From a bacterium (GTDB taxonomy: Bacteria > CSSED10-310 > JAJRTK01), in contig JAJRTK010000198.1 of NCBI GenBank assembly GCA_024278345.1, positions 1-5,758 of the forward strand: a stretch of DNA of 5,758 nucleotides, given 5' to 3'. Of this stretch, positions 2 through 5,495 are shown piece by piece. Made by a program: the position numbers and the translations under genes. Each line of letters opens with the position of its first letter. The first letter of the stretch is position 1. Under the pieces are notes generated by a model. The model had not been told where the DNA came from. It was given only the letters and a program-made list of their open reading frames with translations, and ran no database searches.

Positions 2-1099
2 CTCCAGGCTTTCCGGAGAGCTGGCTTCGACGTGCTGGGCCTTGTCCACGAACCAACGGCCGCCGCCATCGAGTACGCCCATCTCCATCCCAGGTTCATT
101 CAAAAGGCGCCCCGCCACGTTTTGGTCTACGATTTGGGGGGCGGCACATTCGATGCCTCCGTAGTTCGAGTCGAAGCGGAACAGATCCAGGTGCTCGTTT
201 CCAACGGCCTGGAACGGCTGGGCGGAGACGACTTCGACCAGGTGATGCTGGAGCTCGCCCTGGAAAAAGCTGGGATTCCCTCCGAGCAAGTTCCCGAGGA
301 GCTTTTCCCGATCCTCCTCATGCGCTGCAAGGATCTCAAGGAGGCAATCCGCGGAACCACGAAGAAATGGTATCTTGATCTGGAAGAGCTCGGCTGCGAG
401 GATATCCCGCTCTACACCGCTGAGTACTATGATCGATGCCAGCCTTTAGTGGAGAAGACGATCCGCAAGACCGACGAGGTGATTGAAGCCGCCGGCCTGG
501 AAGCTCTGGGCAGCATCAATGCTTTGCTCCTTGCCGGTGGCGGTTCCCAGCTCCCCCTGGTTCGCCGTGCCCTCAAGGCCCTTGTGGGGCGAAGGCTCAA
601 AAGCGCGCCCCAGCCCTTTGCCACCACGGCCGTGGGACTTGCCGTCCATGCCGATTTGGCATCTTCGAGGCCGGTCTTCGATCGCCTGAGCCGCCATTTC
701 GGAGTGTGGCGCGAGTCGGATGCCGGGCGAGTCCGGATCTTTGACACCCTCTTTTCAAGGGGAACACCACTGCCGTCCCGAGGCCAAAAACCGTTGGAAC
801 GAGTCCGCTACTACCATCCCGCCCACAACGTGGGCCACTTCCAATTCGAGGAGTGTACCGGCGTTTCGGCCAATGGCCGCCAATTGGAGCATTCCACGGC
901 CTGGAACAAGATCCTCTTCCCCTTCGATGCGAAGCTGGGACCCAATGAACCTTTGGAAAACCTTCCCGTGGAGCGTTCCGAGCATTTTTCCGATTGCCTG
1001 GCCACCGAACGGTATCTGTGTGACGAGCGGGGTATCATTACCGTGGAGATCAGCCGCGACACTCCGCCGCTGGAACGAAAATATATGCTCTATCGCTAG
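2..1099 (+). CDS. Hsp70/DnaK-family chaperone-like ATPase, 5'-truncated by window edge, no C-terminal lid
   Basis: This is the C-terminal 365 residues of an Hsp70-family protein. The frame is open to the left edge, so the GTG at 32 is an internal Val codon rather than the start, and about 130 N-terminal residues lie outside. Visible ATPase signatures, numbered in the fragment, are GFDVLGLVHEPTAAAIEY (8-25), the phosphate-2 motif VYDLGGGTFD (42-51), GLERLGGDDFD (69-79) and the adenosine-site loop LLLAGGGSQLPLVRRAL (175-191). A short beta substrate-binding-like part follows, with RGTPLP (253-258) corresponding to DnaK PRNTTIP and GIITVEIS (344-351) corresponding to GILNVSA. The protein ends 14 residues later, so the helical lid of DnaK is absent. 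The usual DnaK linker (DLLLLDV) is not recognisable. It is probably a cytosolic, ATP-dependent specialised Hsp70 of about 500 residues rather than housekeeping DnaK. Its client is unknown. The next gene starts 45 bases downstream on the same strand. Confidence 0.9.
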   Translation, partial: LQAFRRAGFDVLGLVHEPTAAAIEYAHLHPRFIQKAPRHVLVYDLGGGTFDASVVRVEAEQIQVLVSNGLERLGGDDFDQVMLELALEKAGIPSEQVPEELFPILLMRCKDLKEAIRGTTKKWYLDLEELGCEDIPLYTAEYYDRCQPLVEKTIRKTDEVIEAAGLEALGSINALLLAGGGSQLPLVRRALKALVGRRLKSAPQPFATTAVGLAVHADLASSRPVFDRLSRHFGVWRESDAGRVRIFDTLFSRGTPLPSRGQKPLERVRYYHPAHNVGHFQFEECTGVSANGRQLEHSTAWNKILFPFDAKLGPNEPLENLPVERSEHFSDCLATERYLCDERGIITVEISRDTPPLERKYMLYR

Positions 1100-1144: not shown

Positions 1145-1906
1145 ATGCACTTGGAATCCAGTTTCTTGGACAAGGGCCAGTACACCACTGCCGGAATCCT
1201 GAAATACGAAGCGGTCTTCGGCGAAAACTTCATCAGCACTGGCGGCGCCAAGACCACTGCCGAAATCTTGCCACTCCTGGGGCTCCAGCCGGGGATGCGG
1301 GTTCTGGACATCGGCTGCGGGATCGGGGGCTCAGCCTTTCAAATGGCCCGGGATTACGGAGTCCACGTTCTTGGTGTCGATCTTTCCAAGAACATGCTGA
1401 CCCTGGCGCGTCAGCGCTGCCAAAAGGCCGGCCTGGAGCATCTTATTTCCTTTGAGCACGGCAATATTCTGGACGATGACAGGCAAGAAGTTTTCGACGT
1501 TGTGTACAGTCGCGACGCCTTCCTGCATATCCACGACAAGAAACGGCTCTTGCAGGTGATCCGCCGCCTCCTCCGCTCCGGGGGACGGCTGGTTTTTACC
1601 GATTACCTGTGCGGTGCGCGGCCGTGGAGCCGGGGCTTTGAGGAGTACGTCCGCCAGCGGAGCTACGATCTTCGAACCCTGGAGGGATATGAATCTCTTT
1701 TGATGGAAGCGGGGTTTGCTGGAATCAACGCAAAGGACCAAACGGATCGGTTTGTTGAGATTCTCAGGGAAGAGCTTGCCACCATGGTCTCCGCGAAGCT
1801 GGATCCCGGGGATTTCCGGGAACTTGGTCAAAGCTGGAGGGACAAGATCCATCGCGCTATCCAGGGGGACCAGCGGTGGGGTTTGTTTGTGGCGGTAAGT
1901 CCTTGA
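1145..1906 (+). CDS. Phosphoethanolamine N-methyltransferase (PfPMT-like, single domain)
   Basis: This is a class I SAM-dependent methyltransferase of 253 residues, with no signal peptide or membrane segment, so it should be cytosolic. It probably methylates phosphoethanolamine three times to phosphocholine (EC 2.1.1.103). The SAM motif I is VLDIGCGIGG (53-62), followed by the acidic motif LGVDLS (76-81) and GNILDDD (106-112). Aligned from memory with Plasmodium falciparum PMT (266 residues), it matches almost end to end. FLDKGQYTTAG matches the segment around PfPMT Tyr19, and YEAVFGENFISTGG matches YEFIFGENYISSGG. The phosphobase-site and catalytic residues all have counterparts: Tyr13 (PfPMT Y19), Tyr21 (Y27), Asp124 (D128), His128 (H132), Tyr154 (Y160), Tyr168 (Y175), Arg172 (R179), Tyr174 (Y181) and Lys234 (K247). 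The C-terminal QRWGLF matches QRWGYF. Bacterial PmtA/Pcs-type enzymes that act on phosphatidylethanolamine lipids do not share this pattern. A sarcosine/glycine methyltransferase is a less likely alternative. Substrate assignment is inferred from residue conservation. Confidence 0.85.
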   Translation: MHLESSFLDKGQYTTAGILKYEAVFGENFISTGGAKTTAEILPLLGLQPGMRVLDIGCGIGGSAFQMARDYGVHVLGVDLSKNMLTLARQRCQKAGLEHLISFEHGNILDDDRQEVFDVVYSRDAFLHIHDKKRLLQVIRRLLRSGGRLVFTDYLCGARPWSRGFEEYVRQRSYDLRTLEGYESLLMEAGFAGINAKDQTDRFVEILREELATMVSAKLDPGDFRELGQSWRDKIHRAIQGDQRWGLFVAVSP

Positions 1907-1939: not shown

Positions 1940-1997
1940 GGGGGGGGAGGCGTCTTGGGGGCATTGAGCCCAGGTGAAGGGTGGTGGGGTGCGAGTG

Positions 1998-2019
1998 GCG
2001 GCGGACGGATTGCCGCCGC
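1998..2019. repeat. GC-rich inverted repeat upstream of the sulfatase-fold gene
   Basis: GCGGCGG (1998-2004) is perfectly complementary to CCGCCGC (2013-2019) across an 8-base loop. It has no T tail, and lies 43 bases upstream of the proposed -35 box. It could be a DNA site or a structure in a read-through transcript. No function can be assigned. Confidence 0.4.
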
Positions 2020-2030
2020 GACGAGCGGAA

Positions 2031-2050
2031 CTCAACACAACTGAACACAA
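2031..2050. repeat. 10-bp tandem direct repeat upstream of promoter
   Basis: CTCAACACAA (2031-2040) is followed immediately by CTGAACACAA (2041-2050), with 9 of 10 bases identical. The 10-bp period places both copies on one DNA face, and the pair ends 11 bases before the proposed -35 box, a position suited to an activator. Binding by a regulator is inference. Confidence 0.45.
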
Positions 2051-2061
2051 GGGAGTACATC

Positions 2062-2090
2062 TGGACTTTGCCCTTTGGGCGTTTTATCAT
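2062..2090 (+). promoter_or_regulatory. Sigma-70-like promoter for the sulfatase-fold gene
   Basis: TGGACT (2062-2067, 4 of 6 to TTGACA) and TATCAT (2085-2090, 5 of 6 to TATAAT) are separated by exactly 17 bases. Transcription would start near 2097, giving a leader of about 118 bases to the ATG at 2215. This location argues against translation starting at 1981. Confidence 0.5.
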
Positions 2091-2201
2091 TCGTTTTTGC
2101 GGGACGCCGCGGCTCATGGGGAAGGACGGTTGGAGTTGGCTGGAAGGCCAGAGTGCTTGTTGCGTCCATGAGGCGGGGAGCGGAAGTCGCGGAAAGATGA
2201 T

Positions 2202-2205
2202 GGAG
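2202..2205 (+). promoter_or_regulatory. Ribosome binding site that decides the sulfatase-fold start
   Basis: GGAG lies 9 bases before the ATG at 2215, which begins a clean signal peptide. Other in-frame ATGs at 2197 and 2200 have only GGAAAG (2191-2196) directly or almost directly abutting them, which is too close to serve well. They would add six or five residues and would not change the mature protein. Confidence 0.45.
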
Positions 2206-2214
2206 CCAGGGAGA

Positions 2215-3663
2215 ATGGAACGTCGTTTTGGGGCATTGTTGGCGGTCGTGGCCCTCTTGGCTCCGACGTGGGCGGGTTTGCGGCTTGTTCACGGAGAAGA
2301 GGTCCGTGATCTGCCGAATGTCGTGATTTTTCTCATCGACACGCTTCGTGCGGATCGCCTTGGAGGGTACGGCTATCCCGTGGCGACCTCGCCCAATATC
2401 GATGCGCTGGCCCGGGAAGGGGTCCTCTTTCGGCAGGCTCACGGGGCGGCGCCCTGGACGCTTCCTTCCATCGTCTCTCTCTTGACCTCGACCTTCCCGT
2501 GCGAACACCGGATTTTGGCGGACGGTCAGAAACTTTCCAGCAAACAGGAGCCTTTGGCCGAGCGATTGAAGCGAATCGGATACAGGACAGCGGCATTTTA
2601 CGCGAATCCCTATGCCGGAAAAATCTCGGGCCTCCGCAGAGGTTACGATTCTTCGCGGCAACGGCAACAGACAGGAGGCTTGATTGTTTGGCAGTGGCTG
2701 GAAACCGAAGACCCGCGCAACTTTTTCCTGTACATCCATAATGGCGAGCCGCACAATCCCTATCTGAAGCGCCAGCAATGGATGCGCATTTTTGGCGGAG
2801 TTTCCAAGGCCGTGAGTCGATCTCTGGGCCTTGAGACGAGACAGCTCCGGCGGTTGACTCGTTGGGACTTCAGGAATCGTGTGCCAATAGGAACGACGGA
2901 CAACTCCAAGGCACAAAGGCGGCTCATCGGCAACCTGGATCGCCGGCGTGGAGATTATTCGATCCTCTACGACGGAAGTGTCCGTCTGGCGGATAGCCGA
3001 GTGGGCGAAGTTCTCGACGTCTTGCGGCAGCGGGGAATCCTGGATGAGACGCTTTTCATTCTGCTGTCCGATCACGGAGAGGAGTTTGGCGAACATGGTG
3101 GCTGGCTCCACGATCAGTCGGTCTACGAAGAGCTCATTCGCGTCCCCATGGTTTTGCGGTTTCCAGGGCGCCAGTTCGCTGGCCGGATCGTGGGCGAACC
3201 GGTGTCGCTCGTGGACGTGCTCCCGACGATTGCCGACTTTCTTCGTCGGCCACGGATTGCCAGTGCCGCCCGAGGCCGAAGTCTGATGCCGCTCATTCGC
3301 GGTGAAGCCTCCGAGGCCTCAGCGGGCTCCGGCATCTTGGCCATGCGCCTGAACAAGAAAAAGTACTATCGGCCATTCAAGGAGAGCCGGGGCGACAAGA
3401 ATGTCCTCGTCCGCCATGGCCAATGGAAAGGGATTTGGAATGCCGAGGTCGGGACCTTGGAGCTCTACGATCTAAGGCGGGACCCCGGCGAGACAGATGA
3501 TCGGGCAGCGGAAAACAAGGCTTTGAGCGATTCGATGAAAAAAAAGGCAGCCTCCTGGTTGACCACCTGTGAAAGTCCGTGGGAAGAGACCGTTCCTTTG
3601 GTCGCTCCGGAGTTGGACAAGGAATCGGAAGCGGCCCTGCGGGCTCTGGGTTATATCGACTAG
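2215..3663 (+). CDS. Exported sulfatase-fold (alkaline phosphatase superfamily) hydrolase with Thr at the nucleophile position
   Basis: The protein has 482 residues. Residues 1-20 form a signal peptide: Arg3-Arg4, a hydrophobic core FGALLAVVALLAP, and possible cleavage after TWA (20) or VHG (27). The mature enzyme should therefore be periplasmic or secreted. The sulfatase domain (PF00884-type) begins at PNVVIFLIDTLRADRLGGYG (34-53), with metal ligand Asp42. The active-site element is APWTLPSIVSLLTS (79-92). Thr82 occupies the site of the formylglycine Cys/Ser and Ile86 replaces the Arg of C/S-x-P-S-R, so classical FGly maturation is not possible. Further conserved parts are IHNGEPHNPY (174-183), YDGSVRLADSRVGEVLDVL (252-270), the metal site LLSDHGEEFGEHG (283-295, Asp286/His287), VPMVLRFPG (310-318), ELYDLRRDPGE (416-426) and the C-terminal LRALGYID. 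Thr nucleophiles occur in phosphoethanolamine and glycerol-phosphate transferases of this superfamily, so a phosphodiesterase or transferase is as likely as a sulfatase. The substrate is unknown. Its stop overlaps that of ftcD. Confidence 0.88.
   Translation: MERRFGALLAVVALLAPTWAGLRLVHGEEVRDLPNVVIFLIDTLRADRLGGYGYPVATSPNIDALAREGVLFRQAHGAAPWTLPSIVSLLTSTFPCEHRILADGQKLSSKQEPLAERLKRIGYRTAAFYANPYAGKISGLRRGYDSSRQRQQTGGLIVWQWLETEDPRNFFLYIHNGEPHNPYLKRQQWMRIFGGVSKAVSRSLGLETRQLRRLTRWDFRNRVPIGTTDNSKAQRRLIGNLDRRRGDYSILYDGSVRLADSRVGEVLDVLRQRGILDETLFILLSDHGEEFGEHGGWLHDQSVYEELIRVPMVLRFPGRQFAGRIVGEPVSLVDVLPTIADFLRRPRIASAARGRSLMPLIRGEASEASAGSGILAMRLNKKKYYRPFKESRGDKNVLVRHGQWKGIWNAEVGTLELYDLRRDPGETDDRAAENKALSDSMKKKAASWLTTCESPWEETVPLVAPELDKESEAALRALGYID
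3660..3663. other. CTAG shared by two convergent stop codons
   Basis: The self-complementary CTAG supplies TAG to the plus-strand gene (3661-3663) and TAG to the minus-strand gene (3662 down to 3660). The two coding regions therefore overlap tail to tail by four bases. No space remains for an intergenic terminator. Confidence 0.95.
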
Positions 3664-5495
3664 CGGCTTGAGTCGGAGACCCGTTGGTCGATGTCGTCCC
3701 GGAGTTGCCTTGCTTTCTGGACGAGATCGTTAAGCTCTTCGGCCATCATGGCACGAAACTCTTCATCCCGGATGGAAGGAAGGTTGACCCGGACATTGTA
3801 GACGGCGCCTTCGACGCCGGCACAGGCCATCAGAGCGGCGACCCCGCCGTCGGTGATGGATGCGGTGTTTCCCTTTTTCACCACGATAAGAGCCAGCTCC
3901 AGCGCTTGGAGGCAGAGCTTTGCCGTCTCGAGAGGGACTTTGGAGGCCGCCTTGTAACCCTCCTGGATCGCCCTTCGCCGCCGCTCCTTTTGCTCCGGTC
4001 CGCCGGATGGAAGGCGCATGGCTTCCAGTACTGAGTTGAAGGCCTCCGTGTCCGTGTCCACGGCTCCCGAGAGTTTTTGCTGGATGGCCTGCGTTTTGAG
4101 GGCGACTTCATTGAGCTCGCCATAGACTTCTTCGTATCCTTCCTTGCCCACGGTGAGATTCGCCACCATGCCAGCCAGAGCGGCTCCAAGTGCTCCCGCC
4201 AGGGCCGCCACGCTTCCGCCGCCGGGGGCCGGAGATTCCCGGGAAACCTCATCCACGAAATCCCTTGCCGAGAGGGACATAAGGCAGCGAGCAGGCCTCT
4301 CTGGAAGGCCGATGACCTTTTTCTCGATCTCGAAGGGGGCCACTTCGGAAAACCCCATGGAACGAACCGCCACGTCCAGAATATCCCGCCAGGGCAACCC
4401 CTTGGGGCCGCCGTATCGGTCGATGTAGTAGAGCCCGGCATCGTAGAGTGCCTGGAAAGGTACCAGGCCTACAATCTCTGACCCCGTCACCACAAGGCCG
4501 CGCTCGTGAGCCAGCCGCCGGCAAGCCTCCAAGACTTCGTGAACGGGCGTGGCGTAGATGTTTGTGAGGTTCATGGTGATCTGGGCGCAGCCATATTCCT
4601 CGATCACCCAGCCGGTGGCCTTGCAGTGATCGAAGAGACCGGGAGCCTTCACCGGGCGCCCTTCGAGGCCATCGATAGGCTGATTCCAGAGTTTCAGGAA
4701 AACCGGCCAGTTGAAATCGTGCTTCGCCCTGTAATGCTGGCGGAGGGTGTCAGTGGTTTCAGCGATTTCGTGGCACATTCCGCAGGGCAAGATCCGCTTG
4801 CTTGGAGAATAGCGGAGAATCTCGCCTCGGAAATAGTGGGGGTGAATGTTTCCCCGTCGAACAGAGCGTCCCTTCTTTCGGATGGCGAAGGCGATATCGA
4901 TGGCGTGCCGTTTGTCCCGGGTATTGAGGTTGATGTTATAGGCGACCAGAAATTCTCGGGCCCCGATAGTGACGACGCCGGTTCGGGCGGCCTGATCGTT
5001 CCATTGTGCGGGTCCGAAGTCCGGTGCCCAGTGGGGATCGGCCAGCTTCTTGGGAAGGGCTTCGTACTCGCCCTGGCGGACGTAGGCCAGGTTTTTCCGT
5101 TCCGGGCGTAGGGCGGCCTGCTCGTACAGGTAGACCGGGATACCGAGTTCATCGCCCACGCGCTTTCCAAGGGTTCTTGCGAGTTTCGCGCAATCCTCCA
5201 TTGTCACGCCCGACACGGGGACGAAGGGGCAGACATCCACGGCTCCGTGACGGGCATGTGCGCCTCTATGTTTTCGCATGTCGATGAGGTCCGCCGCCGT
5301 TTCAATGACGCGGAACGCGCCCTCCAGGACGGCCTCAGGCGGCCCCACGAAGGTGAGCACGGTCCGGTTGGTGTCGGCGCCGGGATCGACATCAAGAACG
5401 CGGACGTAATCGGTGGCCGCCGCGGCCTGAGCAATGGCGTCGATGACGGATTGATCGCGGCCTTCACTGAAGTTGGGTACGCATTCGACAAGCAA
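3660..5495 (-). CDS. ftcD: Bifunctional glutamate formimidoyltransferase / formimidoyltetrahydrofolate cyclodeaminase
   Basis: FtcD acts at the end of histidine breakdown. It transfers the formimino group from N-formimino-L-glutamate to THF, then releases ammonia to give 5,10-methenyl-THF, in the cytosol. The N-terminal formiminotransferase half begins at once with LVECVPNFSEGRD (2-14), then DTNRTVLTFVG (41-51), RGAHARHGAVDVCPFVPVSG (77-96, where His80 corresponds to catalytic His82 of the porcine enzyme), LVAYNINLNT (183-192), ITMNLTN (306-312) and VTGSEIVGLVP (336-346). The cyclodeaminase domain runs from about 407 to 600, with FVDEVSRESPAPGGGSVAAL (413-432) and GNTASITDGGVAALMA (542-557). 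The total of 611 residues exceeds the mammalian 541 by 70. The excess sits at about 211-286 and contains Cys238, Cys241, His254 and His259 in C2H2 zinc-finger spacing. Translation starts at TTG 5495: an in-frame TGA lies two codons upstream and the first conserved residues follow directly. No hut genes are in the window, so its pathway partners must lie elsewhere. Confidence 0.95.
   Translation of the reverse strand: MLVECVPNFSEGRDQSVIDAIAQAAAATDYVRVLDVDPGADTNRTVLTFVGPPEAVLEGAFRVIETAADLIDMRKHRGAHARHGAVDVCPFVPVSGVTMEDCAKLARTLGKRVGDELGIPVYLYEQAALRPERKNLAYVRQGEYEALPKKLADPHWAPDFGPAQWNDQAARTGVVTIGAREFLVAYNINLNTRDKRHAIDIAFAIRKKGRSVRRGNIHPHYFRGEILRYSPSKRILPCGMCHEIAETTDTLRQHYRAKHDFNWPVFLKLWNQPIDGLEGRPVKAPGLFDHCKATGWVIEEYGCAQITMNLTNIYATPVHEVLEACRRLAHERGLVVTGSEIVGLVPFQALYDAGLYYIDRYGGPKGLPWRDILDVAVRSMGFSEVAPFEIEKKVIGLPERPARCLMSLSARDFVDEVSRESPAPGGGSVAALAGALGAALAGMVANLTVGKEGYEEVYGELNEVALKTQAIQQKLSGAVDTDTEAFNSVLEAMRLPSGGPEQKERRRRAIQEGYKAASKVPLETAKLCLQALELALIVVKKGNTASITDGGVAALMACAGVEGAVYNVRVNLPSIRDEEFRAMMAEELNDLVQKARQLRDDIDQRVSDSSR
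4719..4784 (-). other. C2H2 zinc-finger-like motif inside FtcD insert
   Basis: These codons encode FtcD residues 238-259, in which Cys238-X2-Cys241-X12-His254-X4-His259 matches the canonical C2H2 zinc-finger spacing, with Leu251 near the usual hydrophobic core position. The surrounding insert (about residues 211-286, bases 4638-4865) lies between the strand-helix AFAIRKKGR and GLFDHCKATGWVIEEYG. Shorter inserts at this place occur in Bacteroidetes FtcD proteins, as I recall. Zinc binding is inferred from spacing only. Confidence 0.6.

Follow-up and report, generated by a model that had tools for sequence, protein, structure and literature searches.

Formiminotransferase-cyclodeaminase (FtcD) is a folate enzyme, and the occurrence within one bacterial FtcD of a stretch that reads like a classical C2H2 zinc finger raises the question of what such a fold does in a metabolic enzyme, and of how it came to be there. 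The gene lies in the window studied here, that is, the whole stretch of 5,758 nucleotides of contig JAJRTK010000198.1 (assembly GCA_024278345.1), as follows:

3660–5495, minus strand: ftcD, formiminotransferase-cyclodeaminase, 611 amino acids, TTG start; identified by Pfam, NCBIfam and 1tt9 matches

A purine-rich AAGGAAGG is found just 5' of the TTG start. The Pfam domains FTCD_N (residues 2–180, E = 4e-71), FTCD (182–395, E = 4e-42) and FTCD_C (410–589, E = 2e-64) are present in that order, which makes up the complete domain set of a bifunctional FtcD, with the FTCD match interrupted by the insert. The protein scores 347.7 bits against the NCBIfam FtcD equivalog TIGR02024 (cutoff 221), and is matched by the mammalian structure 1tt9 at E = 3e-124 in phmmer. 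Mammalian FTCD (1tt9, 1qd1) shares both domains and their order, and both of these structures are also recovered by Foldseek with the model of the whole window protein, at 37% identity over the alignment and a TM-score of 0.83 by target. The catalytic histidine is shared as well: H80 is the counterpart of pig His82, the proposed base (PMC12622545), and is invariant in alignment A3. Judged from its sequence, the window FtcD, which is the only one in its genome, is thus most likely an otherwise ordinary bifunctional formiminotransferase-cyclodeaminase of the Hut pathway. As for its neighbours, a sulfatase gene (1981–3663, plus strand) converges with ftcD, and the stop codons of the two genes overlap at 3660–3663. 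Further to the left are an Hsp70-like open reading frame (2–1099, plus strand), which is open at the left window end and has its Pfam HSP70 match over residues 3–222 only, so that its C-terminal part is divergent, and, starting just after it, a gene for a SAM-dependent methyltransferase of the Methyltransf_31/11 type (1145–1906, plus strand).

The region of interest is divided into the following parts, all of them within ftcD:

4638–4865, minus strand: stretch with no counterpart in the mammalian enzyme, residues 211–286, linker plus finger; a gap in the alignments with 1tt9 and 1qd1
4665–4808, minus strand: finger module proper, residues 230–277; without counterpart in finger-less bacterial FtcDs, and delimited also by AlphaFold2 secondary structure
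4719–4790, minus strand: C2H2 core, residues 236–259 (LPCGMCHEIAETTDTLRQHYRAKH), with ligands C238, C241, H254 and H259; from homologue conservation, Pfam and PDB profile matches
4809–4862, minus strand: N-terminal linker or stem, residues 212–229; R213 and Y221 fully conserved, matching the linker of finger-less FtcDs in the alignment
4638–4664, minus strand: C-terminal linker or stem, residues 278–286 (EGRPVKAPG); aligned to the DKGNPVYEPG-type linker of finger-less FtcDs

The initial annotation had described a motif C238-X2-C241-X12-H254-X4-H259 with exact C2H2 spacing inside a single insertion at residues 211–286 (4638–4865). Both the motif and this mapping hold: the translation places the four residues as described, their codons are found at 4782–4784 (C238), 4773–4775 (C241), 4734–4736 (H254) and 4719–4721 (H259), and the arrangement fits the classical pattern C-X2-4-C-X12-H-X3-5-H. 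Pfam places zf-C2H2_ZN142 at residues 236–260 with E = 0.024 and 15.0 bits, below the gathering score of 27, a cutoff which is set by convention and does not define the fold. That the excess over the mammalian enzyme is one insertion is borne out by the alignment gap against 1tt9 and 1qd1; phmmer aligned residues 2–211 and 278–596 of the query with 1tt9 and nothing in between, and the pig and rat enzymes lack the stretch. The extent given for the insert stands against the mammalian enzyme, which lacks both finger and bacterial linker and makes a short, direct turn near residues 206–214, but not against finger-less bacterial FtcDs, in comparison with which only about residues 230–277 are new. 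Finger-less bifunctional bacterial FtcDs such as L010 and L035 (44–50% identity, A3 rows) have the same type of linker stem, in a linker region of mostly 46–49 residues, compared with about 98 in finger-bearing proteins. Since the flanks of the finger align with this linker (TG-EIVRD-AAGAPVWEPG in finger-less proteins, RG-EILRY-[finger]-LEGRPVKAPG in finger-bearing ones), the finger is placed where a hairpin-like linker, already present without it, makes its turn. By this comparison, the hairpin-like linker of bacterial FtcDs appears older than the finger module, and the truly new part appears to be a module of about 48 residues (230–277), with 211–229 and 278–286 as pre-existing linker.

An AlphaFold2 model of FtcD, built with 16 sequences, has a pLDDT of 87.8 overall and of about 89–91 at residues 231–260. 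The predicted finger consists of strands at 235–237 and 244–245 and a helix at 248–259, on which H254 and H259 are located, and the insert modelled alone (71 residues) adopts the same beta-beta-alpha fold as in the whole protein. Alignment A2, on which this second model is based, includes two rows taken from genome-search loci. Nearly all structural matches of the insert model in Foldseek and VIA are C2H2 fingers; the best Foldseek E-value, 2.0, is weak, as is to be expected of fingers of some 30 residues. In VIA-align, model residues 21–51, spanning all four ligands, are superposed on a ZFY finger at 1.4 Å rmsd (Z 2.3). Profile searches against the PDB gave ADR1 (5.7e-6), a trypanosome RNA-editing complex protein, CTCF and PRMT3 as best matches, and essentially all matches were C2H2-type fingers. 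The predicted structure therefore brings the four ligands together, as far as the proximity of side chains can be read from a fold that superposes on solved C2H2 fingers. The insert is almost certainly a classical C2H2-type zinc finger, and zinc binding by the window FtcD, which we infer from a model that itself contains no zinc, is very likely. In common with the classical fingers of ADR1, CTCF and ZFY, it has the ligand spacing, the beta-beta-alpha fold and an aromatic residue before the first Cys. It differs from them in being single, acidic and part of an enzyme loop, and in its core, which has a Phe two, not four, residues after the second Cys and a Thr or Leu ten after it. Its nearest PDB sequence relatives are mostly DNA-binding fingers (ADR1, CTCF), as might be expected if FtcD moonlighted on DNA or RNA. 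However, general C2H2 similarity says nothing about function, and each protein has one finger only, with a mean net charge of −2.75 (helix, −1.7). A single acidic finger is poorly suited to nucleic acid, and such a role is very unlikely.

The finger is found well beyond the window. Of 29 relatives recovered by a genome scan, eight (L001–L008) have the insert with all four ligands, and the rest do not. Named carriers belong to Planctomycetota, Bdellovibrionota, Acidobacteriota (Holophagaceae) and Caldifarciminota (Hydrothermus), and there is one alphaproteobacterial MAG, L008, the label of which may reflect misbinning or transfer, since it nests among Holophagae-type rows in the tree. An insert profile of 69 positions matched 15 of 386 broad relatives, 13 of these matches being FtcD, and also 31 of 40 genomes in the phylum of G351, 13 of 17 in that of G010, three of four in that of G013 and 44 of 297 in that of L005. 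Weak profile matches in G033 and G298 were rejected as FtcD fingers, as they correspond to an unrelated multi-finger protein (L073) and an unrelated frame (L074), respectively. The contig of L073 (G033:C28) encodes eukaryotic-looking proteins with multiple C2H2 fingers in a genome assigned to bacteria, possibly through contamination.

Among 104 distinct inserts, with pairwise identities down to 17% (23–48% between the window insert and the others), the ligand sets are CCHH in 97, CDHH in three, and SCYH, CDHY, SDYY and ADHL in one each. An aromatic residue is found two positions before the first Cys in 96% of inserts, and a Phe or Tyr two positions, and a hydrophobic residue seven positions, after the second Cys in 87% each. 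The four ligands are thus conserved together and do not vary independently, and exceptions tend to multiple loss: at least two ligands are missing in four of the seven degenerate inserts, a degree of co-loss reached in 12 of 20,000 column shuffles, a figure that is indicative only because related rows are not independent. Ligand loss in some members might suggest that the spacing is accidental, or that metal binding is a thing of the past in the window protein as well. Yet the window protein has all four ligands, the motif is expected by chance about 0.0001 times per shuffled FtcD (0.0002 for the shuffled insert), and it is conserved over a diverse clade, which makes an accident or a fossil very improbable. 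One family in the phylum of G351 includes three members, L099, L101 and L164 (genomes G414, G417 and G415), that have lost two to four ligands and kept the module, as well as members in G412 and G413 with all four ligands.

With seven natural members short of at least one ligand, zinc appears, from the sequences, to be dispensable in some lineages. The CDHH and ligand-less members retain the remainder of the module, so that zinc would be structural rather than catalytic. Two Cys ligands and a patchy loss of ligands would also fit a tunable site, in which the finger would unfold once zinc is lost or the two Cys are oxidised, with an effect on activity or partner binding; however, persistence of the module in these very members suggests that the zinc state is not essential, and a regulatory zinc or redox switch is quite improbable. 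A parallel is offered by the Ros/MucR proteins, which also have bacterial C2H2-type fingers and, like the FtcD group, include homologues with a Cys-to-Asp change at the second ligand and homologues without zinc. The Ros-type Ml proteins of M. loti are reported either to have Asp in place of the second Cys or to have lost zinc and still bind DNA (PMC9779718). Ros fingers are the DNA-binding domains of a regulator, whereas the FtcD finger is part of a metabolic enzyme. The PDB profile matches listed for the insert include no Ros protein, and the two may still be akin.

The history of the finger was approached with a tree of the formiminotransferase domain from which the insert columns were removed and L164 was left out. 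All finger-bearing FtcDs in it lie on one side of a branch with support 98/98, and the finger was therefore probably gained once. In a larger quick tree, L164, which is degenerate and fast-evolving, is located outside the finger-bearing group, where a long branch has probably misplaced it. Four relatives from the same phylum as the window have finger-less FtcDs, and grouping the window FtcD with them was rejected (p-AU 1.7e-8). Horizontal acquisition would be the simplest explanation, and ancient paralogy a possible one. A phage origin of the insert was rejected after a tblastn search against phages gave no match. An assembly or binning artefact was rejected, as the tetranucleotide profile fits the genome (0.951; nine sampled contigs of the window genome, one masked), the reading frame is uninterrupted and many other genomes carry the same insert. 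A C2H2 module of about 48 residues would thus have been inserted once into the hairpin-like linker, at its turn, within the C-terminal subdomain of the formiminotransferase domain, and finger-bearing FtcD would then have spread over several bacterial phyla.

As to what the finger does, we propose that C238, C241, H254 and H259 bind a single zinc ion, which pins the module in its beta-beta-alpha fold, and that the resulting rigid, acidic knob most likely serves a structural purpose or makes a protein contact, with another subunit of the oligomer, the cyclodeaminase domain or a partner protein as candidate contacts. The proposal as a whole, comprising a single gain, a zinc staple and a contact role that we infer, is held with moderate confidence. 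The subdomain into which the module is inserted contributes to the folate site in the 1qd1 fold, and the stem before the finger has a basic mean charge (+2.7 over 17 columns), with its fully conserved Arg and Tyr. The finger with its basic stem could hence shape or gate the polyglutamate path, guiding tetrahydropteroylpolyglutamate between the transferase and cyclodeaminase sites; but an acidic finger is ill-suited to an anionic substrate, and other bacterial FtcDs have the linker without a finger, so that such a function seems unlikely. The enzyme itself likely keeps its ordinary Hut role, given its invariant H80, the presence of hutH in 16 of 16 and hutU in 15 of 16 genomes with finger-type FtcD, and the adjacency of one finger-bearing ftcD to hutU pieces in G438. 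That gene (G438:C150, L165) encodes a second finger-bearing FtcD in its genome, and the hutU pieces beside it do not share one reading frame, which points to frameshifts or to decay of the gene. The hutU match of the window genome (G000:C102:7037–8659) scores 402 bits compared with more than 890 in most others, and is likewise weak in G351 and G404, perhaps reflecting a divergent urocanase branch.

In the open-access full text on FtcD or formimidoyltransferase and zinc, no relevant paper was found, and earlier mention elsewhere is possible. In the finger-bearing FtcD subfamily, of which we found no earlier description in that literature, a known fold is inserted into a known enzyme: a classical C2H2 finger was gained by a metabolic enzyme and retained over widely separated bacterial lineages. 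The natural series CCHH, CDHH and SDYY makes it possible to observe the loss of a metal site with the remaining module retained. A testable subfamily is thereby defined in an enzyme family relevant to human disease, and cultured sources may exist, since some homologues are found in single-contig genome assemblies. Beyond the structural or contact role favoured here, the finger might be a docking or zinc-responsive module through which a late step in the breakdown of histidine is coupled to a further protein or to cellular zinc status. This is rather unlikely; if true, it would mean that the C2H2 fold is newly used as a control element in a folate enzyme of various bacteria.
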